From NCBI GenBank assembly GCA_009829735.1, contig CM020618.1, positions 21,809,346 through 21,873,345 on the forward strand: a stretch of DNA of 64,000 nucleotides, given 5' to 3'. The translations under genes were made by a program, and so were the position numbers. Shown here piece by piece: positions 46,213-63,759 of this stretch (position 1 is its first letter; each line of letters starts with the position of its first letter). Origin of the DNA: Pyropia yezoensis. Its lineage: Eukaryota > Rhodophyta > Bangiophyceae > Bangiales > Bangiaceae. The notes under the pieces were generated by a model. That model saw only the letters and a list, made by a program, of their open reading frames with translations, was not told the origin of the DNA and searched no databases.

Positions 46213-48060
46213 CGCCAGGTGGTCTTCAGGTGGCCGTCATGCCCCACGCACGCCGGGGGGGGTCGGGTAGTCGGGGCGGAGCATCCACCGCTGGGAGGGA
46301 CAAAAGAGAGGCGGGCGGTGGCGTGGGGTCGACTTGCGTACGCCAAAGACAGCTGCGCGTTGATGCGCAACGCGCGCGATTTGTGGGTTGCTGAAAGCGC
46401 GTAGTTGTCCATGACAAATACACCAGTTGCTACCCCTCGTAGGATTTGGTCGTTTGTACCATGTACAGTACAGTACAGCTGCCGTGCCCGGCCACGCGTT
46501 GCCGTGCCCAGCTACGCCACGCCGTGCCCAGCTACGCCACGCCGTGCCCAGCTACGCCACGCGGTGCCCGGCTACGCCACGCCGTGCCCGGCTACTCCAT
46601 GCCGTGCCCGGCTACGCCGTGCCGTGCTGGGCCATGCTTGGACCGCCCAGGTCCCTAATCAGCGCATAGACCTCCCGCGGAAAAAACTCTCTGTCCTGGC
46701 TCAGTGCGGCCGCAAGGCTGCCGTAACAGTACAGTATGTACACAGTACTTTTGCATGGTAGCGAGGTGGGGTCAAAACTTTGCCGCCCCCAGTTCTCCTT
46801 CTTTCTCCTACCATCACTCGCAGGCCACCCAGAGCGAGGTGCCACACCCACCGACCGCGTCCCCGGCAAGTGCAGGGCGTGGGTTGGCGGGTTACATAGT
46901 GGCTTGGTCCCACTGTGGCGCGCGTCGACCACCCGGCAGCGGGGGCGCCAGCCTCCCCAGCAGGGGGCAACCAAGTGACAAGAGCGCGCCGTATCCCCGG
47001 TCAAGAACGAGACCATGCAATATTAACAGCCGCTCTGTGGCTACGCTCTCCCCCTCCCCAGTAACCATCGCCAGCACACGCGCAGCCACGCCCCGTTAAC
47101 AAAACAAGCTGGGCCACCCCAACGATAGGGAACGGTCGCGCGTTCCTGCCACCCCCGGCAAAGATGCCGCCGCGGCGGCGTCGCCGCACATGCAGCAGAC
47201 TCGCCTCCCTCGACGGCGTGGCGCCAGCAGCCCCGCAACTGCCGGCCGTCCGCCCGTAGGGCCGCCGCGCGGCGGCCTACGCCGCACAACGGAGCGCACG
47301 CCATACGCGGGTTACATGTTTGACTGCGCCCCCCCCCCAGAGCCCAGGTCGTCGCTGGGCGTAGGGTACGCACAGCAAGGAAAAGCCGAGGCAGAACGCG
47401 TTGCGTCAGTTTCGCGGTTCCTGCTTCTCTCCCTTCTGTCCATCAAAAAAAAAAAAAACGATGGGAGAGAAGCAAAAACCACGGGCCAGAGCTGTGTCGG
47501 AGAGACCAGTTCAGCCAATGGCAGCCGTCCACTCCCTATGTTTGCAACCGCTGTGCGGGCGCGGGGCCTTTGATCACGAGCGGCCGTCCCGACGGTCACG
47601 GGCACGTCATCGTGTCCCACAGGCACACGCGTGCAAGGCCCCCAGTGTTTTTGGACAGGCGCCCCAGCAGCCCCGCGGGGTTGGCGCGAAGGCGCGCCGC
47701 CAGCGCGGCTGGTCCCCCGACCGAACGTCCGCCTGCCGCCACGCTGCGGTCTGTCGTCGTCGCGTCGGCTGGTTGGCCTCCCTCGCCCCCCCCCCCCCCC
47801 CACACCACATCGGTAGCCTTGCCTCGTCAGCGGCAGCTGCCGTCGGGCGTCTCCCGGCCACTGAGGCCGTCCATCAACCGGCCGACCAACGTTACCGCTG
47901 CGGCCGACGGCCCGTCCCCCCCCCCCCTTCCGCCGGCGCCACCGGATGCCTACCCCCCCAGGTGGTGGACAGTCCCCCCCCCTCCCCCCCCCCTGTCGCT
48001 CCCCTCCCCCCCCCCCCCACCCTTCCCGCCGCCGCCGCCCCCCCCCCCTCCTGCGTCCCG
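46213..48060. other. Divergent promoter region with minisatellite and TACAGTAC motifs
   Basis: This 1.85-kb stretch separates the divergent giant gene (-) and kelch/RING gene (+). It holds a 20-bp minisatellite, a GTACAGTACAGTACAG motif at 46463-46478 and related motifs at 46725-46748, and a 13-nt A run near 47446. A - frame at 46612-47016 and the upstream extension of the + frame from 47461 are open but show no motif. Confidence 0.55.
46481..46640. repeat. 20-bp minisatellite, 8 copies
   Basis: Eight exact-length units of the form GCCGTGCCCAGCTACGCCAC; three central units (46501-46560) are identical and the outer ones differ by a few bases. It starts immediately after a GTACAGTAC motif and lies about 270 bp upstream of the giant gene. 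Confidence 0.95.
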
Positions 48061-51000
48061 ATGGCCACTCCTCGCCCCTCCCTACGCGTTCGGCTGAGCA
48101 ACTTCACCCTCACGCCGCCCCCACCCCCCCCGCCCGCGGCGGCGGCGCCCCCCCGCTCCCTCTCCTCCTCCTCCATCCTGTCGCTGACGCCGCCAACGGC
48201 AGCCGCAGCAGCAGCAGCAGCAGCAGCAGCGGCCGCGGCGGCGGGAGTGCCACTGGGTGACCACCATGGGGGGGGGGGAGGGGCTGGCGGTGGTGGTGGT
48301 GGCGGCCGGCGTAGCCGGGGGGCCACCCGTAGTCCAAGCACCGGTAGTGACTGGGGGGACCGCTCCATGGCGTCGCTGCGGTGGCGCCGCCGCGCGCCGG
48401 CCGCAGCTGGCGCCCCTGCCGCCGGCGCTGGCAGCCACGTTGGGGGCGGCGGCGGTGGCGGCGATGGCGGTGGTGGCGGTGGCGGCGGTGGCGGCGGTGG
48501 TGGTGGCGGTCGGCGTGGCCGAGCGGCCGTTGGCAGCCGCAGCGGCGGCGGTGACTGGGGCGGCGACGGCGGGGACCGCTCCATGGCGTCGCTGCGGTGG
48601 CGGCGCCGCGCCCCGGCCGGCGGCGGCGGTGCGGGGCGCCCCCCCCCCCCGGTCGCCGCGGGGGGGGGTCCCCTCTCTGGCGGCGCGGTCGGGGCGGGGG
48701 TGCTCCCGTCGCTTCCCCCCCGGGGACCCCTGGCGGTTCGTGTGGAGGGGCCCCGGTCCGCCACGGGAGGGACCGGTTCGTCGGCGGCGGCCGTCGGCGG
48801 TGGGGGCGGCGGTGGTGGTGGGGGGGGCGGCGGCGGTGGTGGTGGCGGCGGTGTATCGCCGGGGGTGCTCCTCCCGCCTGGGGGGGACCGCGTCGACTGG
48901 GGTGACTGGTCGGTGGAGTGGGTGCAGGAGGTGCCGCCCCCGCCGGCGGCGGGGCGGCTGGCGGGGGCGTCCTCCTCTGCGGGGTTGGGGGTGGGTGGGG
49001 GAGGGAGCTTTGGAGGGGGAGGCGGTGGGGGGAGCAGCAGCGGCGGCGGCGGGTTGGGGTGGGGGCGCGGGGTGGCCACGGACTTTTCCGCCCTGCGGTC
49101 GCTCCGCGTCACCGTCCGTGTCGAAGCAGGCTGCGGTGGTGCCGCCGCCGACGCGCCCGCTGGTGGTGGTGGTGGTGGCGGCATTGGCCGTCGCCGCCGC
49201 CTCCTCACCGCCTGGTGGTGGTCTGCCCGCCGGCGCGGCCGCGGCGGTGGCGTTGTCGGCACCCTCTCGTCGGACCTGCACACGCTCGCGACGGGGCCGG
49301 TGCGGCAAGACTTGGCGCTCACCCCCGCTGATGGCGACGGTGGCGTCGGTGTCGGCGGCGGTGGCGGCGGCGGCGGCGGTGGTGGTGGTGGTGGTGGTGT
49401 GGCGGGGAGCGGTGGCATCTACCGCCTGTGCTTTGACGCGACTGTGGAGGAGGTGACGTCTCCCGCGGTGGCTCTGCCCGCCGTCTCCCTCCGGTGGACG
49501 CCCGACGGCGCCACCGCCGCCATCGCCGACGCGGCGGCGGCGGTCGACCCCTCGGGTGCGGCGGCGGCGGCGGCGGCGACGTCGCTGCCGCCGCCGCCGC
49601 CGCCACCCCTGTCCGTCTACCTCGTTTACACGGTCGTGCCGGGCGGGCGCGGGGTGGGCGCGTCGTCCCCCAACGCTTCCCCCCCCACACGCACATCTCC
49701 CTCACGGGTGTCTCCCCGGTGGGGCCCCCTGCCGCTGCTGCCGCTGCCGTCCGCCCCCCTGCGTGTGCTCCTCGGCTCGACGCTCCACCTGCGCGTCCAC
49801 GCGGGTACGACCGCGCACACGCACCTCGCCGGCGGGACGGTGCCGCTGGCGGAGCTGCTCCACGCCACCGCCGCCCCCGCGGGGTGGCGGCTGCCCCTCA
49901 CCCACCCAGTGTCGGGGGCAGTGGTGGCGGTGGCGGCGGGGAGCGTGTCGCTCCCCGGCTGGCCGCGGCTCGCCCAGATGGTGGGCGGCCTCCGCACCGA
50001 GGGGGGAATTTCCGGCGCGTCGCCCGTGGCGGTGGGCGTGCCGCTGCCCGCCGGCTCCACCCCGGATAGCGTGGTGTGGGGCGTTGGGGGGCTCCTGCCA
50101 CAAGGGTGGGCGGGCCTCGTCGACGCCTCGGGGTACCGGTGCTGGGTGTCGGCGCTGGGCGGGCGCTACCGGTGGACGCCCCCAACCGCGTCGGCGGCGA
50201 CGGGGGGGGGGGCGGGGGGGGGCGCCGCCTCGGATGATGGCTTGCCTCCCGGGTGGACCGCCGAGGTCCGTGGCGGCATGACCGTCTACGTGGAGGCCCC
50301 GAAGGGGGGCAGCAGCAGTGGCGGCTGCGGCGGCGGCGGCGGCAGTGACGGTGGCAGTGGTGACCGCGGCGGCGGTGGCGGTCGGGTGACCTGGATCCAC
50401 CCCGCCGCCAGCCGTGTGGACAGCGGCGCCCTGTGGGACGATGCCGGGGGTGGCGCCGATGGTGATCGCCTTTGGGGGGGTGGGGGGGGGGGGGGGCGTG
50501 CCGACGCGCCGCGGCCGGGAGACCAGGAGGTCGCCTCTGACGGCTGGGGGTGCGACGGCCCAGTGGCGCGGTTGGTGCTCTCCCCACGTGCGCGCGCGCG
50601 ACTGGCCGCCGCCGCCGCCAGCCAAAGGGAGGGGACGACCGCCGCGGCGGCGGATGCGCCCGCTGCGGAGGGGGCCACCGCTGCCGCCGCGGTGGCGGAC
50701 GGCCCGCCGCCAGGGGTGGAGGTCAAACGGCGCTCGCGGCGGCGGATAGTGGGTGCGCGCGAGGCCGGGGGGGGCAGAAGAGGGGGTGCCGTCGTCGAGG
50801 ACGGCGGTTCCGCCTGCGACGCGGGTGTTGCCTCTGGGGGGGGCGACGCTGCGAACGGCGGTGGTGCTGGCAGCGGCGGCGACGGTGGCGGCGGTGGTGA
50901 CGCCGGTGGCGTCGCCGTGCCCGCAGGCTGTAAAGACGGGGACGATGACCACCCGGCGGCGGTGGTTGTCAAAGGCGGGCACCCCAAGGCGGGGGGCACT

Positions 51001-52929
51001 GGCGGCGGGGGCGACCGCGGCGGCAGTGACGGCGACAGTGACGGCGGCGGCTTTGTCGACAACGGCTTGCGGGGGGGGGTGGAGGCGGGTAGTCCCGCCT
51101 GCAGTCCATGCATGGGCGTGGCGGGCGTGCCCCGGGACTCGGACGCCGCTGCATGCAGCAGCAACAGCAGCAGCAGTGACAGCGGCGGCTCGTCCCCGCC
51201 GCCGTCCCCCCCCGCGCGGCAACGACGACGGTCACGGTCGCCTGCTGCCCCCCCTCCGCCCCTCCCAGCTCTGGGCGGCCCGTCGACGACGCCCTTGACG
51301 CAGACAGACGGGGCGACCGCCACGGAGATGCAGTGGGTGAGCCTGGCCGCGCCTCAGTTATCTGACCCTCCGGCGGTGGGTATTGCCGCCATCGCGGGCG
51401 CCGCCGGCGTGACTGTCGCGGGTGGCGCCCCCTCCCCTGACGCCCCCCCCCCCCCGGCCGACGGCCCGGCGGCGGGAGCCACCTTCCTCACTACCCTCCG
51501 CGCGGGGCCGTCGGGCGGCGGCGGCGGCGCGGGGGGCGGCGGCGCCGGCTCGTCGGGAACCCCCACCGAAGGCCACTCTCTCCTCCCCGTGGATACCCCG
51601 ACGCCCGTCACGCCCGCGGGGGGTGGGCGGGTGGTGGTCAAGTTTGGGGGCCGCGACGCGGCGGGCGGCTGGCACGCGGCTGTCCACGCGTTTGCTGCAA
51701 CGACGGGCACTTGGTCGGCGGTGACGCCCGCCGGCCTCGCGCCGACTGGCCGCACGGGCCACGCCGCGGCGGTCCTGGCGGGGGGGCGGATGGTAGTCTT
51801 TGGGGGTGCCACCCGCGCGGGGCGCGTCGCGGACCTCCACGTCCTCGACACGGGGCGGATGGCGTGGACGCCGCTCGGCCGGTCGGGGGGGGCGGCCGCA
51901 GCGGCGGCGGCCGCGACGGCGGCGGCAACGGCGGCGGCTGCCGCCGCGGGGGGGGAGACGGTCGGCCGCCGGGGGAGGTGGGGGGCGGCGGCTGCGTTGC
52001 CCGCGTCGTCGGTGGTGGCCACCTGGCACGGCGGCCGCGGCGGCGGGTCAACGGCGGCTGCCGCGTCGGGCGGTCCCGCGGCGGACACGGCCACCCCCGC
52101 CGCCCGCGCACGGACGACGCTGGTGGCGACCGAGTCGGGCACGGGAGCCGTGCTGTATGGCGGCCGCAGCGGCTATACGTACATGGGCGACCGCTATTTT
52201 GCCGACCTTCACTTGTGGGACGGCGGCCGCGGGAGCTGGCTACGCCTCCACCCGCGCCGGGGCTCCCCCGCGCCGGGGCCCCGCGCCGCCCACGTTTCGC
52301 ACCTTGTCCACGACCGGGCGGTGCTGGTGCACGGCGGTCTCCTCGACGGCGCCTGCTCCTACGCCGACACGTGGCTGTTTGACCTGGCCGCCGGCACCTG
52401 GGTCCGCCCGCCCTATGCCGACGGCCCCGGCGCGCCGATGGCGCGCGAGTCCCACGCGTCTGCCGCGCTGCCCGGCTCGGTGGTGGTCTTTGGCGGCGCC
52501 GCCGACAATGGCATGTACCTCAATGACGTCGGTGTCCTCGACACGGGCACCCTCCGCTGGGCCGAGGGTGGCGTCGTTGCGCGCGGCGCCACGCCCGTTG
52601 GCCGCACCGGCGCGGCCCTGGCGCCGCTCGACGACCGACGGCTGCTGCTGGTTGGCGGCGAGACGGGGTGGTCCACCGAGGGGGGCCGCGGTACCCTCCT
52701 GGATACGGCGTCCGCGTCTGTGGCGGAGATGCGAGAGCTGCTTGCCGCCGCCGTGGACCGTGGCGGGGGGGCCGAGGTGTGCGTCGTGTGCCTGACCGCG
52801 GCCGTCGATACGGTGTTCCTGTGGTGTGCGCATTATGTGTGCTGCTGGGGGTGTGCCAAGCGCGTCATGCCCGTGTGTCCACTTTGTAGGGGGGAGGTGT
52901 TCAAGGCGCAGCGGGTGTTCAAGCGGTGA
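48061..52929 (+). CDS. WW-kelch-RING protein, putative E3 ubiquitin ligase
   Basis: Single exon, 1,622 aa, start chosen at MATPRPSLRVRLSNF. Order of parts: Pro/Gly-rich N-terminus with a duplicated RSMASLRWRRRAP block; a possible C2-like beta domain (about 515-615; VYLVYTVVPGG, LRVLLGSTLHLRVHAG, GGTVPLAELL); a WW domain split by a Gly/Ser insert (LPPGWTAEVRGGMTVYVEA at 728-746, VTWIHP with Trp778); a low-complexity linker; about five kelch repeats (1190-1545) such as RTGHAAAVLAGGRMVVFGGA, AHVSHLVHDRAVLVHGG and SHASAALPGSVVVFGGA; and a C-terminal RING (CVVCLTAAVDTVFLWCAHYV, then CCWGCAKR and CPLC; C1574, C1577, C1589, H1591, C1595, C1598, C1606, C1609; C3HC4). RING domains recruit E2 enzymes; the kelch propeller and WW would bind substrates, WW preferring Pro-rich ligands. 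Ligase activity is inferred. The frame is open upstream to 47461 without motifs. Confidence 0.85.
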   Translation: MATPRPSLRVRLSNFTLTPPPPPPPAAAAPPRSLSSSSILSLTPPTAAAAAAAAAAAAAAAGVPLGDHHGGGGGAGGGGGGGRRSRGATRSPSTGSDWGDRSMASLRWRRRAPAAAGAPAAGAGSHVGGGGGGGDGGGGGGGGGGGGGGGRRGRAAVGSRSGGGDWGGDGGDRSMASLRWRRRAPAGGGGAGRPPPPVAAGGGPLSGGAVGAGVLPSLPPRGPLAVRVEGPRSATGGTGSSAAAVGGGGGGGGGGGGGGGGGGGVSPGVLLPPGGDRVDWGDWSVEWVQEVPPPPAAGRLAGASSSAGLGVGGGGSFGGGGGGGSSSGGGGLGWGRGVATDFSALRSLRVTVRVEAGCGGAAADAPAGGGGGGGIGRRRRLLTAWWWSARRRGRGGGVVGTLSSDLHTLATGPVRQDLALTPADGDGGVGVGGGGGGGGGGGGGGGVAGSGGIYRLCFDATVEEVTSPAVALPAVSLRWTPDGATAAIADAAAAVDPSGAAAAAAATSLPPPPPPPLSVYLVYTVVPGGRGVGASSPNASPPTRTSPSRVSPRWGPLPLLPLPSAPLRVLLGSTLHLRVHAGTTAHTHLAGGTVPLAELLHATAAPAGWRLPLTHPVSGAVVAVAAGSVSLPGWPRLAQMVGGLRTEGGISGASPVAVGVPLPAGSTPDSVVWGVGGLLPQGWAGLVDASGYRCWVSALGGRYRWTPPTASAATGGGAGGGAASDDGLPPGWTAEVRGGMTVYVEAPKGGSSSGGCGGGGGSDGGSGDRGGGGGRVTWIHPAASRVDSGALWDDAGGGADGDRLWGGGGGGGRADAPRPGDQEVASDGWGCDGPVARLVLSPRARARLAAAAASQREGTTAAAADAPAAEGATAAAAVADGPPPGVEVKRRSRRRIVGAREAGGGRRGGAVVEDGGSACDAGVASGGGDAANGGGAGSGGDGGGGGDAGGVAVPAGCKDGDDDHPAAVVVKGGHPKAGGTGGGGDRGGSDGDSDGGGFVDNGLRGGVEAGSPACSPCMGVAGVPRDSDAAACSSNSSSSDSGGSSPPPSPPARQRRRSRSPAAPPPPLPALGGPSTTPLTQTDGATATEMQWVSLAAPQLSDPPAVGIAAIAGAAGVTVAGGAPSPDAPPPPADGPAAGATFLTTLRAGPSGGGGGAGGGGAGSSGTPTEGHSLLPVDTPTPVTPAGGGRVVVKFGGRDAAGGWHAAVHAFAATTGTWSAVTPAGLAPTGRTGHAAAVLAGGRMVVFGGATRAGRVADLHVLDTGRMAWTPLGRSGGAAAAAAAATAAATAAAAAAGGETVGRRGRWGAAAALPASSVVATWHGGRGGGSTAAAASGGPAADTATPAARARTTLVATESGTGAVLYGGRSGYTYMGDRYFADLHLWDGGRGSWLRLHPRRGSPAPGPRAAHVSHLVHDRAVLVHGGLLDGACSYADTWLFDLAAGTWVRPPYADGPGAPMARESHASAALPGSVVVFGGAADNGMYLNDVGVLDTGTLRWAEGGVVARGATPVGRTGAALAPLDDRRLLLVGGETGWSTEGGRGTLLDTASASVAEMRELLAAAVDRGGGAEVCVVCLTAAVDTVFLWCAHYVCCWGCAKRVMPVCPLCRGEVFKAQRVFKR
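48354..48618 (+). repeat. In-frame internal duplication in the kelch/RING gene
   Basis: About 45 bp beginning GGGGACCGCTCCATGGCGTC occurs near 48354-48405 and again near 48571-48618, encoding DRSMASLRWRRRAPA twice. A weaker third copy, DWGDWSVEWVQEVPPPPA, follows near 48894. The copies are separated by Gly-rich sequence, suggesting expansion of a short basic motif. Confidence 0.85.
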
Positions 52930-53379: not shown

Positions 53380-54993
53380 CTAGTGCTTGCCGCCGGGCAG
53401 GTGCGCCTTGATCCGGTCCAGCATGCTGTGGTCCTCCTTGTGCGTGTACCCCGACGCCGTCGTCTTGGCGCTGCTCCCCGCCGACGCGGCCGTCGTCTTG
53501 GCCGTCGCGGTGGCCGTCTTCACCGTGGCGGTGGCCGACTGGGTCGCGTTCGTCGCGGTCGTCTTGACTGCCGCCACAGGCTTCACAGGCACTGCTTCAA
53601 CAACCGGGGCGACTGGCACGACGTTGGCCGCCTTTGCCGTCGATGCCTTGACAGACGTCATCGGCACGGCCATCGGCTTGGCCTGGGTATGGGCCTCCAC
53701 CTCAATCACCTTCTCCACCACGACGGGCACCTCTTTCGTGTACTCGACCGGCACCTCAATCTTCTTCTCCACAATCTTCTCCACCTCAACCTGTACGGAT
53801 CAAGACACGCATGTACGCGACGGGTTTGATGGGAGAAACAATGGAAGAGAGACACCGTTAGCTCATCGGAGGGCATCACGTAGCGGGAAGTAGAGCAACG
53901 CGAAGTTGGAGCACCAGCGGAGACAAAGCAAACCGCAAGAGGCCACATTGACCACATCGTACCAAGCCCCCGACACCAACTTACCACCTTCTCCACGATG
54001 ACGGGAACTTCCTTGACCTTCTCTACAGGCACAGCGCGCTCGACCTCGACGAGCTTCTCAACCTCCACCACTTTCTGCTCCACCCCGACCCGACAGGAGA
54101 GTGCACGAAAAAACGGGAGAAAACCAGGGGCGTGAGGGCAAACAAGTGATCCATATGAGTATGCCGCCCCACAAGACGGAGCCCTTCGTACTTTCAGCAG
54201 AGGGCAAGACACCAGCCCGTACATGCTTCGCCTCGATCACAACCGGAATCCGCTCGTGGTCCGCCCAGCCCGACCCTCTGCTGGCACAGCACTGGCAAAC
54301 GAGTCCTCCAGGCACAGGTCCACGTCGCCAGCCCCCGCATACACGACCCTTCCCGGCCGACTCTGTCCTCCGTCCTCACTGCAAACCAACGTACCTCCTG
54401 GACCACTGGGACCTCCTTGATGACCTCCACCGGGCGCTCCACATATTTGATCTTCTCCACTTCCACAGGGATCTTCTTCTCCACCTGTGTAGCTCACCGT
54501 GGGAGGAGGGCGCGTTCCGGAAAAAGCCAAAAACAGACAGGAAAGGCATCACAGGGTGAGTACATGGCGTCATGAGTGCGACCGTGCAATAACGCCCAGG
54601 ACAGTGGCACGGCGAATAGCTGCCCTCTCTGACGTACTCGTCTCTGTCGCTCGCTGCCACACCCCCCCGCAGACGCCAACGTACAATCTTCTCCACCTCA
54701 ACCACCTTGTCGACCGGCCTGGCAGTCTCGTTGAGGATCTCAACAGGCTTGGGCACCCCCACCGTTTTGGGCACCTCCACCACCTGCTCGAGGGTGGCGG
54801 CCTTAGTAGACACTGGCACCGCCACGACGGGCGTCGCGGCCGTCGCCTTGACAGGCACCGCCGGCACAACGGGAATGGCGTTGGTGGCCACGACGGGCAC
54901 GTCCTTGACTGCACCGGCGGTCACCTTGGAGGTGGTGGCAGCGCCCGCGACCGGCACCCCCGCGACGGGCACAGACGGCTTTGTCGGTCCCAT
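53380..54993 (-). CDS. Alveolin-like repeat protein with dehydrin-like K-segment, paralog A
   Basis: Four exons on the minus strand (54993-54685, 54484-54395, 54074-53985, 53790-53380), all joined in phase 0, give 299 aa. Introns of 200, 320 and 194 nt start GTACGT, GTACGT and GTAAGT. Exons 2 and 3 are each exactly 30 codons and each encode one repeat module (VEKKIPVEVEKIKYVERPVE...; KVVEVEKLVEVERAVPVEKV...). The central part is built of Val/Glu/Lys/Pro motifs (EKVVEVEK, VEVIKEVPVV) like those of alveolins and articulins, which form membrane-skeleton sheets in alveolates and euglenids. The N-terminus is Ala/Val/Pro-rich (KPSVPVAGVPVAG). The C-terminus is Ala/Thr/Ser/Lys-rich and ends HKEDHSMLDRIKAHLPGGKH, close to the plant dehydrin K-segment (..MDKIKEKLPG). 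There is no signal peptide or membrane segment. A cytoskeletal or stress-protective role is inference. The paralog is at 60.2 kb. Confidence 0.85.
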
Positions 54994-55167
54994 GGTCGAG
55001 TGGGTGGGTTGCGGAGGAGTGGAACGGAAAGGGAAGGGGAGAGGTGTTGGCGTGAGAGAGGATGATGGTGCGGCGGGAAGGTGTGGGGTGGTCAGCGAGC
55101 GAGTACGGAAGAGTTGCAGAGCTGGACTGGTCTGCGCGGTCGCGCTAACGAGGACCCACATGCTACT

Positions 55168-55174
55168 TCATAAA
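55168..55174 (-). promoter_or_regulatory. Possible TATA-like box of paralog A
   Basis: On the minus strand CTCTTTATGAAG lies about 175 nt upstream of the ATG at 54993. It is a weak TATA-like match in a region otherwise poor in A/T. Confidence 0.25.
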
Positions 55175-56210
55175 GAGGGCCACCGGGCGCTGCCGCGGGA
55201 ACCCCTCCCCCCGCCACCCCCCAGCAGGACCCCTCCCATCGGAACACGCTGCCAGAGCATCACCCCACGTCGCTGCTGGGGAATGGAATGCATGCACGTG
55301 ACCATGCAGCCGGCGGCCGCGGCCGCCAACCAGCAAGCGACCCACAAACCGCCTCGCCCCCGCGGCAGTGTGGGGATGCCCCCAGGACGCGGGCTCCCGC
55401 GCGTGGTGCCCAGCCCAGAGTCTGGCAGGCAACAGGCATTCACGCAGCCACCTTCATCCCTCTTCCAGCCTCTGCAGGGGCACCTGCCCTCATCCTTCTC
55501 GACATGAACCCAACCAGCAGCGGACACAGTCCTCAGATCCGGAAGCGTATGCAAAGCCCGGCGCATGAAGATATCTGAAGGTGCAGACGGGTGGCGGCCT
55601 CGTGACTGCCTAGGATGGCCTGTGCAAACAAACTCAGGCGCTTCCCCCCTCCAACCACCCCCCCCAACCCCCATCCAGCCACAGAGAGGGCGCATAAAGG
55701 GGCTGCCGCGAGAACCGCAGCGGGGGGAGCGGGCGGTGGGGAAGGAGACCAAGCTTCGAGGGAACGGCCACTGGGGGGGGAGGGGGGGGTGCGCACGTGT
55801 GGACCGGGGTTCAGATGGTGGAGGATGCGGGGGGGGAGGCGCGATGAAAGGGCGCGGTGCACACTGCTGCCAGAAGCGGCGCGTGCCCCGGCCGGACGGC
55901 AAAAGCGGGCTCGATCAGGGGCGGGCGGGACGGCGGCTAGCCGTGGAGCGCGGCTCACGACCAGCGGGTTTGCATGCGACCACCACGGGTTGAGATGTTC
56001 TCGCGGTTTGTCTGGACTGCGCCCATGGAGCGAGAGCGTCAGTGTAATCACAGACTGGCAAGATGTACGAAGTGGGGTGCACCGGGTGCGGCGGCACGCC
56101 GTCTGCCGTCGGGTCCGTCGGCGGGGTGGCCCCCTTGTATATAGCGGGGCGGCCCCCTCTCCGGCAGGGAGGCAAACACCCAGGGAGAGGAACAAACACA
56201 GTGACACATA

Positions 56211-56329
56211 TTGTGCGTCCCCTAAAAAGTGGACGTGCACGGGTCGTGCAGTGTGGGTTTGATTGGTCCAGTGGCCGGTATTTGACATGATCACGACACG
56301 TGCACGTCCACTTTTTACGGGACGCACTA
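56211..56329. mobile_element. MITE, copy 2 (119 bp, TA target-site duplication)
   Basis: Terminal inverted repeats of about 31 bp match with only two differences (outer part TGTGCGTCCC.TAAAAAGTGG). The element is flanked by TA on both sides (56209-56210 and 56330-56331), the duplication typical of Tc1/mariner-type elements. The core matches copy 1 at 15242-15363. It is non-autonomous, with no coding capacity, and lies about 615 bp upstream of the decarboxylase start codon. The near-intact ends suggest it is younger than copy 1. Confidence 0.9.
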
Positions 56330-56943
56330 TAAGAACAAACACCAGACCAAACTGGCCACGTCGCCTGCCCTTAGCCGCCACACTACTTGTGGGGCTCATC
56401 CGACACACACGCCTGGCGGTGAAACGGATGACGCCCAGCTGGGCACGCAGTGGAGACCACTCTTTTGTCGCCCGCATCGGCCTGCAGAGCCCTTCAACGT
56501 GCTAGTGCAGCTCAGCGGCATCGCCCGTGAGCGCAAGCAAATCATGTGCACGACACACACATGGCATCGTTGGCTCGGCTGTGCTCTCCAAATCGGCGGC
56601 ATTTCATGAAGTTCTTTATTGAAAAATGGTCCTCCTGTGGAATAGCCACTGAGGGGCTTCCTACCGAACATGCTATGTTTCACACTTCGTCAGTCATTTG
56701 TCACTTCGCGACAACCTCAATGGGCTGTCAATGCAGCTCTCTCGGTCGAAATCATCTTGCAGCCGACGGCTTCCAGCGTCCCTAACCTCGCGCGCACCTC
56801 CACCGTCAGCTCGTGTGCTGGCCACTGTCACCCTCCCCCGCTCTTCGTATCACCATCCCTTACCGCCCCCCAACTTCAGGACGCTTTCCAGGTCCATTTG
56901 GTACTTGCTCCGCGTGTCCTTCCCCTATTTTGTGGCCTGCAGT

Positions 56944-58458
56944 ATGGTTCCCACGCCCTCCTCTATCCCTGCCCCGGCTGCTTGTGCTGCCCCTGGTGAC
57001 GGGGGCCAATCCATTAGCACCGTTCTTGGCTCTGCCATTGATACTGGCGCCGTGGGGGACACCCCCCCTGTTGCCCTATTCTTTGACTTGACCGCGTTCC
57101 GCCGCCGCTGCGACGCGCTGGTGGCCGCTTTCCCACCGACGACGCTCCATGGTTTTGCGGTCAAGGCCAATCCGGTCTTGGCTGTGGTGGCAGCCGCGGC
57201 GGCTGCCGGCTTGGGCGCTGAGGTGGCCTCCATAGGGGAGGCGCACGTGGCGCTGGCGGCGGGGGTCCCGCCGGCCAAGATTGTGTATGACTCGCCGGCC
57301 AAGACCGACGCCCACCTGACGTGGGTGCTCTCCCGCGGCATCCACGTCAACGTGGATAACGTGGATGAACTGGAGCGACTGGCTACCGTGCGCGCTGCGC
57401 TGCTCTCCGCCGCTGACCTGCCCGACGCGGCACAGGGTGCGCGAGAGGCTGCCACAGCTGCCGCCGCCGCCACGGTGGGCTTTCGTGTCAACCCGCAGCT
57501 GGGGACGGCCAGCATTGCCGCCACCTTTACGGCGGCCGCCACTTCCAAGTTTGGCGAGCCCCTGCGGGAGCGCCGGTCCGCCATTGTGGCGGCTGTGGCT
57601 GCGCACCCCTTTGTACGCTGTCTCCACGTGCACGTAGGCTCTCAGGGCGTGGCCCTCGACGTCCTGGTGGCGGGCGCGTCAGCGGTGGTCGAGCTGGCGG
57701 CTGAGATCAATGATGACGTGGGTCGTCGGCAGATTGACACATTGGACATTGGCGGTGGCATGTCCGTGGACTACAATGGGGAAAACCCAGCGGGGGGGCC
57801 AACGTTTGATGCCTACGTATCCGCATTGCGGTCTCGTACGCCCAAGGTGTTTGACTTTCGACTCGTCACTGAATTCGGGCGCTCCCTCGCGTCCACCGCT
57901 GGCTGGGTGGGTGCCCGTGTGGAGGGTGTCAAGAGGGCGGGCGGGCGGACGATGGTGGTGTGTCATGCTGGTGCTGACCTGTTCATGCGTGCGGCGTACG
58001 CACCAGACAAGTGGCATCATCGCGTGGAACTGTACGGGGCGGACGGGACATGGAAGGGGGGGTGCGGAGGACCCGCCAAGGGCCACTGTAACTACCAGGA
58101 CCACACGCACGACCGGGCAGGGGACGAGGATGCGGACTCGGTGGCTGCTACCGCCAACGGCAGTAGCAACGACGAGGGCCAGGACATGGCCTCGAAAGGT
58201 CTGGTGGCGGTGGACATTGCTGGGCCACTCTGCTTTTCTGGTGACATTATTGCGCGTGACCGGCAGCTGCCGGCGGCGGCGCGCGGAGACTGGGTGGTGG
58301 TGCGCGAAGCGGGGGCGTACACCATGTCTGCCTATTGCCGGCACACTAGCCAGTTGGTCCCGGCGGTGTGGGGCTACGAAGAGGCCGCTCCGGCCAAGCT
58401 GAAGCTCTTGAAGAAGGAGGAGACACCCGCAGACTTGGTGTCGTTTTGGTCGGCCTGA
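56944..58458 (+). CDS. PLP-dependent decarboxylase of the diaminopimelate/ornithine decarboxylase family (fold type III)
   Basis: A single-exon frame gives 504 aa from MVPTPSSIPAP; the frame is open upstream to 56698. The alanine-racemase-like TIM barrel contains LHGFAVKANPVLAVV, with PLP-binding Lys74, then EVASIGEAHVAL, KIVYDSPAKTDAHL, IHVNVDNVDELERL, FRVNPQ, CLHVHVGSQG and DTLDIGGGMSVDY. EFGRSLAS takes the place of the usual E-P-G-R motif. The C-terminal beta domain has VDIAGPLCFSGD (Cys430), like the GPxCxSGD element of diaminopimelate decarboxylases, and YTMSAYCRH. Family members decarboxylate meso-diaminopimelate (last step of lysine synthesis) or ornithine/arginine (polyamines). The GPLC.SGD motif favours a LysA-like enzyme, but the altered VKANP and EFGR contexts make the substrate uncertain. 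The N-terminus shows no clear transit peptide. Confidence 0.82.
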   Translation: MVPTPSSIPAPAACAAPGDGGQSISTVLGSAIDTGAVGDTPPVALFFDLTAFRRRCDALVAAFPPTTLHGFAVKANPVLAVVAAAAAAGLGAEVASIGEAHVALAAGVPPAKIVYDSPAKTDAHLTWVLSRGIHVNVDNVDELERLATVRAALLSAADLPDAAQGAREAATAAAAATVGFRVNPQLGTASIAATFTAAATSKFGEPLRERRSAIVAAVAAHPFVRCLHVHVGSQGVALDVLVAGASAVVELAAEINDDVGRRQIDTLDIGGGMSVDYNGENPAGGPTFDAYVSALRSRTPKVFDFRLVTEFGRSLASTAGWVGARVEGVKRAGGRTMVVCHAGADLFMRAAYAPDKWHHRVELYGADGTWKGGCGGPAKGHCNYQDHTHDRAGDEDADSVAATANGSSNDEGQDMASKGLVAVDIAGPLCFSGDIIARDRQLPAAARGDWVVVREAGAYTMSAYCRHTSQLVPAVWGYEEAAPAKLKLLKKEETPADLVSFWSA

Positions 58459-60152
58459 ACCCCGGCTCTGCTGCGCCTCTCTGGGGTACACAACTCACCA
58501 CCCGTTTCTCTCATGAATGATTGTACGTACAAAATTTGTTGCTTTGGATGCATGGAACATATTTTTCATGGTGGGGCGTAAGCAATTCCTTACGGGATAC
58601 TCACCGACACGACCGTCGGGGCTCGTGGGTGCTCTTCACCAAACGTTATCGACGGAAATGTGGAAACGTTTTGCCACTCGTCGTCGCTCGATCTATGGTT
58701 GAGAGTTTGCCGTACGGGCGTTTCCGCGAAGCATTTCTGGAAGCCACAGAAGTGGTCAGACACTGAACGAATCAAAGGATTCCAGACTACCTGGAGGACG
58801 ACTTCGTCGTGTTGGTGGGGACGCAGCCTCTCTGCCCATCATCGCCAAGGTCACCTGAACATAGTCCACCCACCGGCGCACTGAGAGCCTGTCCGTTAAC
58901 CTCCTACCGCTCTCCCTTCCGTCCCCTCCTCGGCCGTGCTAGCCTCACGTTCCATGCAGATGCCGTTAATGCGCAGGTATGCTTGAGATGCCCGCACGGG
59001 GGCAATGTCCTTCCCAAAAACAGCCGCACTCTCCCCCCACATTGCCTGCCTCATAGTGCACGAAGCGTGCCCACGCCTCACATCAACGGCGGTGAAGCTG
59101 CTCGATGTCCAGAGGCGGACGTAAGCATTCCGCAAAGCCCAAAGGACAGGGGATGAAGAAAACAAGGGGCAGCCTCCTGGCGTCTCTGCTGCAACGCCAG
59201 CTGCCTGCTCGACCGGCCCCCGCCGACCGCCCTGATGTTCCCGCTCGGCCCACCGCTTTCTCCTCTATGCGCTTCACCCCCCCACCGCCAACGATCTCGC
59301 GGTCTCTGAGATTGATTGACAATCTTGGCCTGGGCAGCCAGCTTGATGAATCATGACGTCATACTGTGAGGGGGGGGGAAGCGGATCTACGCGCAGCGTC
59401 CGAGTCCCCACCTGCCTTGCATCCGGTGGGACTGGCGGCGATTGCACGCCTGATGCCCAGACCGACCATCCGTTTGCAGCCCCAACCATCCCACCAGTCG
59501 GGACTGCCGCGCTGGGAGGCCGCAGAAGGAACCCTGGCGCCTACTCTCCTGTCATGGAAGCTGGCAGCGCGCGCACTGTCCGGCCAGCCTGTGTCGCTAG
59601 GGCTGATAGCCTTTGCGGTTGCGGTGCGCGGGGACGACGGATGAGGACCGCGACGCCTGGCGTGTGTCATCTCGAGGGTTGGACGCAGTCGCGACCACCG
59701 CAGCCACGGAATCCGAGATCCCTCACTTTTTGCATGCCCCGCCCCTAAGGAGCTGTATGGCGTCAGCGGCCCTTTGGCTACCTCTTTGCATGCAGATAGA
59801 GGCTTTGTGGGGGGCTCCCGACTATGGGGCTGGTCGTGCCAGCATGCATTTCCTGGTGGGGCGGTGGCGGGGTGTGACGGACCAAGGTGCTGTGCGGGGG
59901 GGGGGGCGGAGGCGGGGGCGTCGTGGGATGGCGCCGTACTCTCCCCTAGGTTCGTTTTGTGTTTCCCGGCTGGGCAGCGGGGGTTAAGACCGTACGGATT
60001 TCGTTGCCTGTCTGTTCACGCCCTCGCGCAGACGCACCCCATCACATCCTCTCATCAACTTGCTCGCTGCAGTAGCCTCTCACCATCTAGCACCTCACGT
60101 CTGCCGCAGTCGCCAACTACCGCATCCGCCTAACCCTCGCACCCCTTCCGCC
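58459..60152. other. Intergenic region with moderate GC
   Basis: No gene was recognised. Short frames at 58517-58884 and 59353-59748 have no motif. The segment at about 58500-58760 is less GC-rich than its surroundings and could be a decayed element, but no terminal repeats were found. The promoter of paralog B lies at the right end. Confidence 0.5.
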
Positions 60153-61306
60153 ATGGGGCAGCCCGAGAAGAAGGTTGCCGCCGCCGCCCCCGTTGCCGCT
60201 GCCGGCACTGCCGCGACGGGCCTGAAGCCTGGCACGCTGGTACAGCCGGTTGCCCCTGTCGTGGCGGTGCCTGTGTCGTCCAAGCCCATCATTAAGGAGA
60301 AGCTTGTGGATGTGACCAAGGTGGAGGACGTTACTAAGCCTGTGGAAATCCCGGTGACGAAGCCGCTGACGGTTGAGCGCGTGGTGGAAGTGGAGAAGGT
60401 GGTGGAGCGGAAGGTCCCGGTCGAGGTGGAGAAGGTCGTGTATGTCGACAAGCCGGTAGAGGTCATCAAGGAGGTGCCGGTCATCAAAGAGGTACGTTGC
60501 AGGGTGCAGCGAGGGCTGCCGGAATTGGTTGCGCAGAGCGGCTGGGCGCGTGGGGACCATCCACATCCTTCGTCGCAGCATTCTCTGGAGAGGAAGTGTA
60601 CTAACCGCTATGGCTGGTTGTGCTGTTTTTTTCTTTTGTGCCCGCTGCTCCATTGTCCGACGGCGCTGCGCAGGTTATCAAGGAGGTGGAGAAGGTGGTT
60701 GTCGTCGACAAGCCGGTAGAGGTCGAGCGCGTCGTGCAGGTTCCCGTTGTCGTTGAGAAGAAGGTACGTTGCTGTCATGAGAAGGAAGTTCGGAGTCTAC
60801 CGGGTGCGCACGTTTGGTTCATGTCTTTCTGTCAAGCAGAGCTTGCCTGGACACCTGATTGCGTTGCCATTGAAAGCACGTTGTTCTGACTCGGTGTGCA
60901 TTGTGTCGTTTTTGCTCTCCACATTCTCTTCTCCTGTGTTTTATTCTACTGTACTTGCCTATGACTTGGACAGGTGCCGGTTGAGAAGATTGTCGAGAAG
61001 CACGTTGAGGTGCCTGTGGAGGTCATCAAGGAGGTGCCCATCGTGAAGGAGCGTATCGTTGAAGTTGACACCAAGCAGGCGACCGCCAAGCCGGTAATCG
61101 TCCCTGTCGCGCCGGTCGCGGCGGCCAAGCCTGTTGTTGGTGCCGCGGCGGTGAAGCCGGTCGTTGGTGTCGCGGCCGTCAAGCCCGTCGTGGCAACGAA
61201 GCCGGCCGCCACTGGCACACACCACAGCAGCAGCCACTCGTCGACGCACAAAGAGGATCCGTCGCTGCTTGACAAGATCAAGGCGAAGCTGCCGGGCAGT
61301 CATTAA
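60153..61306 (+). CDS. Alveolin-like repeat protein with dehydrin-like K-segment, paralog B
   Basis: Three exons (60153-60491, 60674-60763, 60974-61306), joined in phase 0, give 253 aa. Introns of 182 and 210 nt both begin GTACGTTGC and end CAG. Exon 2 is exactly 30 codons, as in paralog A. The N-terminus is Ala/Pro/Val-rich (MGQPEKKVAAAAPVA). The central region repeats charged Val/Glu/Lys motifs: ERVVEVEKVVERKVPVEVEK, VVYVDKPVEVIKEVPVIKE, VEKIVEKHVEVPVEVIKEVP. Three tandem AVKPVV units follow (61148-61194), then HHSSSHSSTHKEDPSLLDKI and KAKLPGSH at the end. The serine tract plus LDKIKAKLPG recalls the S- and K-segments of plant dehydrins, disordered proteins that coat membranes during dehydration. 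No signal peptide or cysteine is seen. Membrane-skeleton, desiccation or cold protection roles are inference from composition and motif. Confidence 0.85.
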
Positions 61307-62322
61307 GCCATGTCGCCGCGCCGGGAGCGGTCTGTATAGATAAAGCGGGGGGGACCTTTTTGTACATACCAACAGTTGTGGTGGGGGTGTGTCCGTAAAC
61401 ACGGACCATGGACACTGCCGTTTGCAGTGTTCTCCTCGCAGGTTGGCGCGGGTGTTGATAAAAGATGCGAAAGGCGGTCGCGGGGCGACGGCTGGTAAGC
61501 TCCGTGAGCGCCGCGGTCGCCGCGAGCGGGGCGCCAAAGAATGCCGGCGAGCAGCAGCCGCAGGGAAGGTAAGGATTTGTGAAGGGCCGCCGCCCAGGGC
61601 AATACCGCTTTGACGCCGCCGCCGCAGAGACGCGGGAAGGGGGTGGCACCGAGAGATGAGGGCGAGGGGTGTCTCCCCAGGCTGAGTGCGGTGGATCCCC
61701 TCCCTAAAGGCCGTCCCCGGCGGGCGCCCCCGTCTGTGGCAGCCTCCCGGCGACGGCCAGAGCAACGACGGAAGCTCGCCCCATGACCCACATAACGGCA
61801 CAACAGCCCTCCTCCCTGCCCTCCAGCTCCCCCTTCAACCGCGGGCCCTACCACCAGCGCGACCATCCACGGGGCGCCAGCCGCCCCAGGCGCCCCCGTC
61901 TCCCCTTCCGGTCCCCGCTGCGGCATCCGTCGCCACACCGCCGACTGCACCGCCGCCCACCCGCCCACGCCGCCACCGCATATGCCCGTCGCCGCCTCGC
62001 AAGTGGCCAGCCGCCGCGGTATTCGACGCAATGACAGCTAGCGCCACCGCCGCGCCACCTCCAGTGGCGAGGGAGGACGGGGCGGCTCCCAAAGAAGACG
62101 GCGGCGGCGCTGCCGCGGCGCGACTCGCCGGCGAGGACACCGCCCCCAGACCCCCTGCGACGTTGCTTGGCACGAGTACGACCTCTTCCTGTGAAAAGAA
62201 TACATTTTCGCGCGATGAACTTCCACGTGGTTGCTGCTGCTTAAGATCCTTTCTCTCGGCCGGCACTCTTGCGACGGCCGTCGCCTCCGCCGTCGTCGTC
62301 ACCGCCGCTGCGAGCACCGTCC
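61307..62322. other. Region between paralog B and the pseudouridine synthase, with a possible 5' exon
   Basis: A frame beginning MTASATAAPPPVARED at 62031 runs through the CCG tract as polyalanine to a GTGAGT donor at 62512. A CCTGCAG acceptor at 62671-62677 would join it in phase with the pseudouridine synthase frame. This is an alternative first exon of that gene; no other gene is seen. Confidence 0.4.

Positions 62323-62400
<78 letters not shown>
62323..62400. repeat. (CCG)26 trinucleotide repeat
   Basis: Twenty-six uninterrupted CCG units end directly before the ATG at 62401. Depending on frame it would encode polyproline, polyalanine or polyarginine, or lie in the 5' UTR. Pure tracts of this length are expected to be length-polymorphic. 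Confidence 0.97.
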
Positions 62401-63759
62401 ATGGCTCCCAGCCGGCTTGCGTGGCATATTCTCCCCCTCTCGAAGAACATTCTGTTTGCTGCCCGGGGTACAGCGGGCATGGCCACCCGTACGGTGGCAC
62501 CAGCAGCCGACGTGAGTGCAGCGGTCCTGGACCCCTCTTATCCCCCCTCTCACCCAGCAAGGCAAGCCCCAGCGGCGGCGGCTGTGGCGGCGGTGGCTGC
62601 CGATTTACCCCCCTCCCTTCCCCACGCGGAGCGTGACCTTGCTCCCGGAACTCTACGCCCCCGCAAGAGCCCTGCAGACGGCATTGTGCCGGTTCTCACT
62701 GGCGGCCGCCCCGACCGGTGGGCAGGCGGCGGCCCGCCCCCCCCCCTGGTGCTCCTCCACTCTTGCGACCGGTACCTGGCGGTGGACAAACCTGTGGACG
62801 TGCGCGTCGATGGCGACTGGCCCGTGACGGTGGAGAAGATGGTATTGGCGCACCTTGCCGTCGCGCGGCCGGCGGTGCTCGAGGCGGGGCTGCGGCGGCC
62901 CAAGCTCATCCACCAGCTGGACTTTGCCACGTCGGGGGTGATGCTGCTGGGGCTGGACCGCCGCGCTGCCGCCGCGGCGGCGGCGGCGTTTGCATCGCGC
63001 ACCGTCCGCAAGCTGTACGTGGCGCTGGTGGATGGGGAGGTGCGCCCACCGGGCGGGCCGGGGGGGGGGGCGCTGGTGTGTGACCAGGCGGTGGCACCGC
63101 TAGGGGGTGGGGACTTTCGGATGGTCGCCGTGGGCGGTGGCGACGCCGACGCCGGCGTCGCGCCCGCCGCGGTCGACGCCAAGGCCGCCCTCACAACGGT
63201 CATCCCGCTGTCGATGGGCTGGCTGGGCGGCCGCCGCGTCTCGCGGCTGGGTCTGGTGCCTCACACGGGGCGCCGACACCAGCTGCGGGTGCACCTGGCG
63301 GCGATGGGGCACCCCATCGTGGGGGACGGCACGTACAACCCCGCCGACGGAGGGGGGGCGGGCATTGCGGGACCGTGGACGGGGCCCGCTGGCGGGGGCG
63401 CCGTCGCCCACCCAGACGCGGCGGTGGCGGCGGCGGCGGCAGCGGCGGAGGGGTCGGAGGTCTCTTTGGCCGCGACGCCCCACCGAATGATGCTGCACGC
63501 GTGGCGGCTGCGCATTGGCGGCCTTCCACAGCCGTTGGGCCGCCTGGACCTGACCACCGCCGACCCGTTTGCCGGGCTGCTGATGGGCGAGGAGGTGGCC
63601 GAGGGGGGGGGCGCGCGGGTGGAAGCGGAGCTCGCCCGTCCCGTCTCTGGCACGGAGGCCGCCACCGCGGCGCGCAACAATAAACGAAACCGGGGACGGC
63701 GAGGAAGCCGCCAACCGGGGCCTGCAGGGGTGGTGGTAGGGGATGGGGACACCAGCTGA
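62401..63759 (+). CDS. RluA-type pseudouridine synthase (RPUSD-like)
   Basis: The frame from MAPSRLAWHILPLSKN encodes 452 aa. The conserved core begins at about residue 115 with LVLLHSCDRYLAVDKPVDVR. The catalytic motif is KLIHQLDFATSGVMLLGLDR with the nucleophilic Asp174 (HQLD where most members have HRLD). Next come RTVRKLYVALVDG and RLGLVPHTGRRHQLRVHLAA followed by GHPIVGDGTYN, the other RluA/RsuA signatures. These enzymes convert uridine to pseudouridine in rRNA, tRNA or mRNA. The proximal GHPIVGDGTYN and later HRMMLHAWRL match RPUSD1-like eukaryotic members. Gly/Ala inserts interrupt the core around residues 215-230 and 325-355. The C-terminal tail is basic (NNKRNRGRRGSRQPG). The N-terminus is Ala/Pro-rich and may be an organelle signal; a spliced alternative start at 62031 is possible. 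RNA target unknown. Confidence 0.85.
   Translation: MAPSRLAWHILPLSKNILFAARGTAGMATRTVAPAADVSAAVLDPSYPPSHPARQAPAAAAVAAVAADLPPSLPHAERDLAPGTLRPRKSPADGIVPVLTGGRPDRWAGGGPPPPLVLLHSCDRYLAVDKPVDVRVDGDWPVTVEKMVLAHLAVARPAVLEAGLRRPKLIHQLDFATSGVMLLGLDRRAAAAAAAAFASRTVRKLYVALVDGEVRPPGGPGGGALVCDQAVAPLGGGDFRMVAVGGGDADAGVAPAAVDAKAALTTVIPLSMGWLGGRRVSRLGLVPHTGRRHQLRVHLAAMGHPIVGDGTYNPADGGGAGIAGPWTGPAGGGAVAHPDAAVAAAAAAAEGSEVSLAATPHRMMLHAWRLRIGGLPQPLGRLDLTTADPFAGLLMGEEVAEGGGARVEAELARPVSGTEAATAARNNKRNRGRRGSRQPGPAGVVVGDGDTS

Follow-up and report, generated by a model that had tools for sequence, protein, structure and literature searches.

The locus at positions 53,380 to 61,306 of a 64,000-nucleotide window from Pyropia yezoensis (assembly GCA_009829735.1, contig CM020618.1), an intertidal red alga of the order Bangiales, raises the question of what kind of protein would join charged, valine-rich repeats to a tail that resembles the K-segment of plant dehydrins. 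An earlier note on this DNA had placed two paralogs here, and both proteins, hereafter A and B, were found at these coordinates, with the refinement that each is encoded by a spliced gene. Our preferred answer, offered tentatively and with less than even confidence, is that A and B, as paralogs, belong to a single protein family of red algae and act as cytosolic epiplastin-like scaffolds tied to membranes by a K-segment-like helix. In such a scaffold, ordered acid-base-dyad modules rich in V, E, K and P would pair with modules of neighbouring molecules to form a filament or a mesh; on anionic membrane surfaces the C-terminal stretch would become a short helix and fasten the mesh there. The most likely use would be to brace membranes mechanically while the cells lose and regain volume at low tide. 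The sequence itself gives the gene structure, the order and composition of the domains, a predicted helix in the tail and, for the B type, conservation of that tail; filament formation, membrane binding, location and a role in stress are inferred.

The gene models were built from sequence only. Gene A runs from 54993 to 53380 on the minus strand and has four exons (309, 90, 90 and 411 bases; 299 residues, 31 kDa), and gene B runs from 60153 to 61306 on the plus strand with three exons (339, 90 and 333 bases; 253 residues, 27 kDa). Both proteins have the same domain order, namely a head rich in A/G/S/T, an acid-base-dyad domain of about 130 residues rich in V/E/K/P, a low-complexity linker and a C-terminal tail, distributed as follows.

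54685..54993, minus strand: A exon 1, with the start codon (ATG, open frame, GTACGT donor), an A/V/P/T-rich head and the first part of the dyad domain.
54395..54484, minus strand: A exon 2, a single 30-residue dyad module matching the end of B exon 1 at 22/30 residues.
53985..54074, minus strand: A exon 3, a single 30-residue dyad module matching B exon 2 at 16/30 residues.
53380..53790, minus strand: A exon 4, with the last dyad module, an A/T/S-rich linker, the K-segment-like tail and the stop codon; sub-threshold Dehydrin match at E 0.02.
53383..53445, minus strand: A tail, THKEDHSMLDRIKAHLPGGKH, with 5/10 defined K-segment positions.
60153..60491, plus strand: B exon 1, with the start codon, an A/V/P-rich head and the first part of the dyad domain.
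60674..60763, plus strand: B exon 2, a single 30-residue dyad module.
60974..61306, plus strand: B exon 3, with the last dyad module, an AVKPVVG-type linker, a His/Ser tract, the K-segment-like tail and the stop codon; covered by the orthologs P0001 and P0038.
61117..61191, plus strand: 27-bp tandem repeat of 2.8 copies, coding for part of the B linker.
61217..61243, plus strand: His/Ser tract of B, THHSSSHSS, preceding the tail.
61244..61303, plus strand: B tail, THKEDPSLLDKIKAKLPGSH, with the predicted helix SLLDKIKAKL and 7/10 defined K-segment positions.

All five modelled introns are of the GT-AG type and in phase 0, and four of them have a GTACGTTG donor. The one intron that A has in excess of B lies at the start of the module matching the end of B exon 1, and its remaining two are at places equivalent to the introns of B. 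It might be argued that the models are artefacts and that the exons do not join into proteins A and B, as most of the matching database proteins (P0001 to P0006) are themselves genomic readings that run into or through introns. However, we consider this very improbable in view of the uniform introns, of which two have matching positions in A and B, of the orthologs that enter introns at the same places (P0002 to P0006 are 87-97% identical to B exon 1 and continue into the intron where the model places it), of the alignment of A and B from end to end, and of ratios of non-synonymous to synonymous substitution (dN/dS) below 1. Computed pairwise, these ratios are 0.20, 0.42 and 0.31 in short blocks of 40, 32 and 19 codons, and are given as point estimates.

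We then asked which parts of the two proteins have been kept, judging local alignment scores of A against B by 2000 shuffles per region. The dyad domain scored 381 (shuffled mean 122, z 22.3) and the last 20 residues scored 69 (shuffled 18, z 12.5), and none of the 2000 shuffles reached either score; the corresponding values were z 2.3 for the head (47/2000) and z 4.2 for the linker (2/2000). On these z scores, the dyad domain and the tail are the most constrained parts, and the concern voiced in the earlier note, that the repeat similarity might be no better than expected for shuffled sequences of the same composition, does not apply. When the 30-residue modules were cut at the introns and compared without register shift, in 15 pairs within and between genes, modules at the same position in A and B shared 22, 16 and 20 of 30 residues, and the other 12 pairs shared 5-11 of 30; the dyad repeats look old and individual, with no recent expansion. 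A six-frame search of the whole genome (107,475,971 bases, 11 contigs) with B returned five matches at E ≤ 0.001, three in B itself and two in A.

The V/E/K/P repeats quoted in the earlier note are present in both proteins, and the assignment made there to alveolins and articulins can be divided. Epiplastins, of which articulins are a subclass, have been described as proteins whose medial acid-base-dyad domain is high in V/I and in charge, nearly devoid of A and G and predicted as strand or coil, whose flanks are A/G/S/T-rich and whose organisms build an epiplast, with more than three VPV as the mark of the articulins (Goodenough et al. 2018, PMC6212826; here, as for the other papers cited, we draw on parts of the text). 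With domain bounds set by eye, as in that paper (residues 68-195 of A, 46-175 of B), the dyad domains of A and B contain 33 and 36% V, 7 and 8% I, 41 and 41% charged residues, 1.6 and 0% A, 0.8 and 0% G, and no S, compared with published epiplastin means of 25 ± 7 for V, 9 ± 4 for I, 35 ± 6 for charged residues, 1 for A, 0.4 for G and 1 for S. Most residues lie within one standard deviation (SD) of these means; values 1-1.6 SD above them were found for V and V+I in B, for E in A and for K in either protein, and values 1.3-1.6 SD below for R in either. VPV occurs five times in each protein (shuffle means 1.2 for A and 1.4 for B, with five or more in 10 and 45 of 5000 shuffles), dyads number 16 in A and 19 in B (shuffle means 10.3 and 10.7; 150 and 10 of 5000 shuffles attained these counts), and A/G/S/T make up 46 and 44% of the heads and 51 and 41% of the tails of A and B, respectively (bounds by eye). 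The likeness to epiplastins is thus in a V/I- and charge-rich, A/G/S-poor dyad domain, in VPV number and in the flanks, whereas A and B differ from them in their red-algal host, low Arg, high Val, the lack of an IMCp match over the cut-off, and a K-segment-like tail, which is not among the epiplastin head and tail motifs in the parts of PMC6212826 that we draw on. Under the naming used there, "epiplastin-like" is the proper term. Repeat composition alone does not establish common descent, since such repeats are also found in unrelated bacterial and viral proteins.

Alveolins (IMCp, PF12314) also have charged V/E/K/P repeats, but neither A nor B matched IMCp at E ≤ 1, nor did any place in the genome at E ≤ 10; among 14 control genomes, one, that of Caulobacter vibrioides, was matched. 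The ortholog P0001 reached E 0.083 across the dyad module and into the beginning of the linker, at 13.7 bits against a cut-off of 21.1. With no IMCp match above the cut-off, alveolin membership of A and B is rejected, and what survives of the original assignment is the fit to the epiplastin/articulin profile. Structure prediction with AlphaFold2 (AF2) for exons 3 and 1 of B placed neither strand nor helix in their dyad parts, at a mean predicted local distance difference test (pLDDT) of 50.7 and 45.1 (no DSSP output for exon 1). Among solved structures, none matched B at E ≤ 1, and a profile of the last exon gave one match, at E 0.75, that was dismissed as chance.

Turning to the tail, the C-terminal motifs given in the earlier note, LDRIKAHLPG in A and LDKIKAKLPG in B, were confirmed, as was the serine tract of B (HHSSSHSSTHKED, before the tail), and the two tails share the consensus THKEDxSxLD[KR]IKA[KH]LPG. 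A protein search with B found 35 proteins at E ≤ 0.001 among 7,992 candidates scored; of the 17 examined, P0001 to P0006 are clear relatives, with intron readings at the same places. A profile search with the last exon found two proteins at the same threshold among 7,990 scored, P0001 and P0038, which end in THKEDMSLLDKVKAKLPGSH and THKDDPSLLDKIKAKLPGTH, respectively. Counting gap columns as differences, identity in the last dyad module, linker and tail is 30/32, 44/72 and 18/20 between B and P0038, 31/32, 51/63 and 18/20 between B and P0001, and 31/32, 47/72 and 16/20 between P0038 and P0001; between A and these three, 20-21/32 positions are kept in the last dyad module and 14-15/21 in the tail. 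The alignments indicate that conservation is higher in the tail than in the linker, and the loss of the tail motif in orthologs, which the earlier note named as grounds for giving up its proposal, is not seen in either of the two that cover the last exon. This conservation is documented for B-type proteins only; a search with the last exon of A alone found no A-type ortholog at E ≤ 0.001 (707 candidates). His/Ser tracts stand just before the tail in B, P0001 and P0038, but not in A. As a side observation, P0001 and P0038 depart from B in length slightly after the 27-bp repeat, and the length of the B linker may differ between strains.

How far, then, is the tail a K-segment? At E ≤ 1, A and B each matched a single Pfam family, Dehydrin (A, E 0.038, 14.9 bits; B, E 0.0014, 19.6 bits; cut-off 30.6), and it was also the best Pfam match of P0001 (0.0059), P0038 (0.022) and the last exon of A (0.02). 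All of these matches are below the cut-off and all are at the end of the profile, which we take to be the position of the K-segment. The 78-residue tail of B alone scored 23.4 bits (E 9.3e-5), and among nine B tails with the last 36 residues shuffled, none matched Dehydrin at E ≤ 10. A Dehydrin search of the whole genome found two places, which are the tails of the two proteins (E values 0.034 and 1.8, sub-threshold in each case); the model matched none of the 14 control genomes, so that this search has no positive control, and its values gain weight from the conservation of the tail in paralog and orthologs. At the DNA level, a KIKxxLPG-type pattern occurs at five sites in the genome (three forward, two reverse), against four and four for a reversed control pattern, and alone is therefore no rarer than chance; apart from the site in B itself, two (L012 and L013) were set aside, having no resemblance to A or B over 47 codons each.

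Against the K-segment definition XKXGXX(D/E)KIK(D/E)KXPG (PMC9096783), B and P0038 agree at 7 of the 10 defined positions, P0001 at 6 and A at 5, and a full K-segment is found in none; the B tail has neither the Lys nor the Gly defined for the first half, nor the acidic residue after KIK. Identity to the canonical K-segment is 9/15 residues for B and 7/15 for A, which makes the statement that the tails closely resemble it fair for B and generous for A. In a six-frame scan of the window (107,636 15-mers), the B tail alone exceeded 5 of the 10 positions, and eight others reached 5, including the A tail and two dyad stretches. AF2 found a single element in the last exon of B, a helix at residues 96-105. 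Helical hydrophobic moment did not separate the tails of A and B from shuffles, but this test is uninformative, since the canonical K-segment was not separated either.

Could the charged repeats be convergent low complexity with some other role, in the wall, in vesicles or in a red-algal scaffold, and the dehydrin likeness of the tail be coincidental? The remaining 11 of the 17 proteins examined have, by eye, the repeat alone in common with B, and at least four bacterial and at least seven viral loci match query residues 1-49 only, the search patterns having been taken from the repeat part. Moreover, the dyad domain of B aligns above shuffles to repeats of P0011 (z 8.7) and P0007 (z 12.3), Dehydrin E values are weak genome-wide and, for A, at the level of chance matches, and epiplastin-like proteins occur in fungi and insects without known epiplasts (Goodenough et al., PMC6212826). 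Nevertheless, the dyad domain and the B tail pass their shuffle controls and the tail is conserved, and the KIKxxLPG-type pattern is present in 0/11 of the bacterial and viral loci, a weak control, as the pattern also misses the tail of A. We regard coincidence as rather unlikely. Among these sequences, P0007 (183 residues) has a signal-peptide-like start followed by VEVPVEVIKNVPV repeats and matches B at E 1.8e-9, by eye via the repeat only, and at least seven viral contigs (L018-L024) carry VEKIVEK/VEVPVE repeats like those of the dyad domain.

The chief rival of the scaffold is a disordered protectant, in which the K-like tail of a dehydrin-like protein would bind membranes or clients on drying and the charged repeats would be an extended spacer. 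It is consistent with Dehydrin being the best Pfam match of the tail, with the Ser and His residues before the B tail, as in SK-type and His-flanked dehydrins, with the grand average of hydropathy (GRAVY) of the last 36 residues (-0.81 in A, -1.08 in B), with the two folded B exons showing no predicted order except the tail helix, and with the presumed intertidal habitat of the host. On the other hand, the proteins as a whole are not hydrophilic (GRAVY +0.15 for A and +0.20 for B, Val 24-27%), in contrast to values of about -1 to -1.9 reported for dehydrins, the order and composition of the dyad domain have been kept, which a spacer would not need, and there is one K-like segment only. We find such a protectant possible but somewhat unlikely. 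Dehydrin membership itself (PF00257; K and SK types) was rejected on three grounds, the model cut-off, the incomplete K-segment and the lack of strong hydrophilicity; what remains of the dehydrin-like tail proposed earlier is a K-segment-like stretch by profile, with a predicted helix, which in B survives the shuffle control. Convergence with plant dehydrins on a membrane-binding helix is no less likely than descent shared with them.

Returning to the membrane-tied scaffold, plant K-segments turn helical on anionic membranes, and in one dehydrin His residues flanking the K-segments control binding (PMC9096783). Some epiplastins carry palmitoylated Cys, an anchoring that is unavailable to A and B, as neither has Cys; neither has the N-myristoylation pattern. 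On sequence grounds, the K-like tail appears a better candidate for membrane contact than the linker.

Several observations weigh against this scaffold. The tail is not the sole possible membrane contact, since hydropathy over 19 residues peaks in the linkers, with Kyte-Doolittle values of 1.64 (A) and 1.75 (B), just above the usual limit of 1.6 for a membrane span, although with Lys and Pro inside. The genome holds two copies of the gene family only, and we know of no epiplast in red algae. The tail of A has 5 of the 10 K-segment positions, and its Dehydrin values (E 0.038 and 0.02) are no better than chance matches, because one of the nine shuffled B tails matched DUF6479 at E 0.029 (and also COX3 at E 0.33) and A itself matched unrelated NCBIfam models at E 0.013 and 0.79, B being without an NCBIfam match; the A tail was therefore judged by its likeness to that of B. 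The genome-wide Dehydrin values are weak and not convincing alone, and the AF2 tail helix is of modest confidence, with 7 of 110 residues at pLDDT 70-90. Moreover, the absence of AF2 strands from the B dyad parts, at low confidence, differs from the long strands predicted for epiplastin dyad domains, and a published search for IMCp in 58 genomes and 14 transcriptomes gave no red-algal candidate (PMC6212826). Finally, a dehydrin-like protein of 17 kDa has been reported from Porphyra umbilicalis and not from Pyropia yezoensis (cited in PMC4661969), whereas A and B are of 31 and 27 kDa.

As for related systems, epiplastin-like proteins of Caulobacter, Basidiomycetes and insects resemble A and B in having a dyad domain without a known epiplast; the comparison is by description only, and the part of that description drawn on here reports a single copy per genome in fungi and insects and does not mention a K-segment-like tail (PMC6212826). 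With regard to K-segments, a provisional search of NCBI in 2025 over cyanobacteria, heterokonts and red algae reported one full-length variant, in Tribonema, along with shorter pieces, for example KIKEK, in other algae (PMC11763121), and dehydrin-like proteins have been detected immunologically in brown rockweeds (Li et al.). In the genome of Neoporphyra haitanensis no late embryogenesis abundant (LEA) proteins were reported, and the authors concluded that early red algae either had not yet evolved LEA proteins or did not use them in desiccation tolerance (PMC8752119). In the open-licence literature searched, no paper was found that joins dehydrin with articulin, alveolin, epiplastin or epiplasmin, in agreement with the earlier note, to which no such combination was known; what is new here is an epiplastin-like protein bearing a dehydrin-like tail.

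Other genes in the window were also recorded. A and B, inverted with respect to each other, flank an unrelated gene for an ornithine/diaminopimelate/arginine decarboxylase (56698..58458, plus strand; PF02784, E 2.5e-35; PF00278, E 8.7e-13), which is not part of the system. At 47401-52929 (plus strand) is an 1842-residue open frame that contains Gly/Ala/Pro-rich simple sequence as well as Kelch repeats and, C-terminally, a RING finger; its product is probably an E3 ligase, and the first part of the frame may be non-coding. An RNA pseudouridine synthase (PF00849) lies at 62269-63759 (plus strand), its frame starting in a trinucleotide repeat whose translation is poly-Pro in this frame and poly-Ala or poly-Arg in others.

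Overall, these results touch on published reports, in the parts of the sources drawn on, that neither IMCp candidates nor K-segments came out of searches in red algae and that LEA proteins were not found in one Bangiales genome; a K-like tail of the kind found here would escape any search at the Pfam cut-off. That Bangiales possess a desiccation-related membrane skeleton, of an undescribed epiplastin-like class carrying its own dehydrin-type membrane anchor, is a conjecture that we put forward as doubtful. If true, it would give red algae a counterpart of the epiplast and place a K-segment-like element outside the green lineage. A and B are, to our knowledge, the first concrete red-algal sequence candidates for testing such a membrane element, and also candidates for testing whether a charged-repeat scaffold takes part in the survival of drying by nori.

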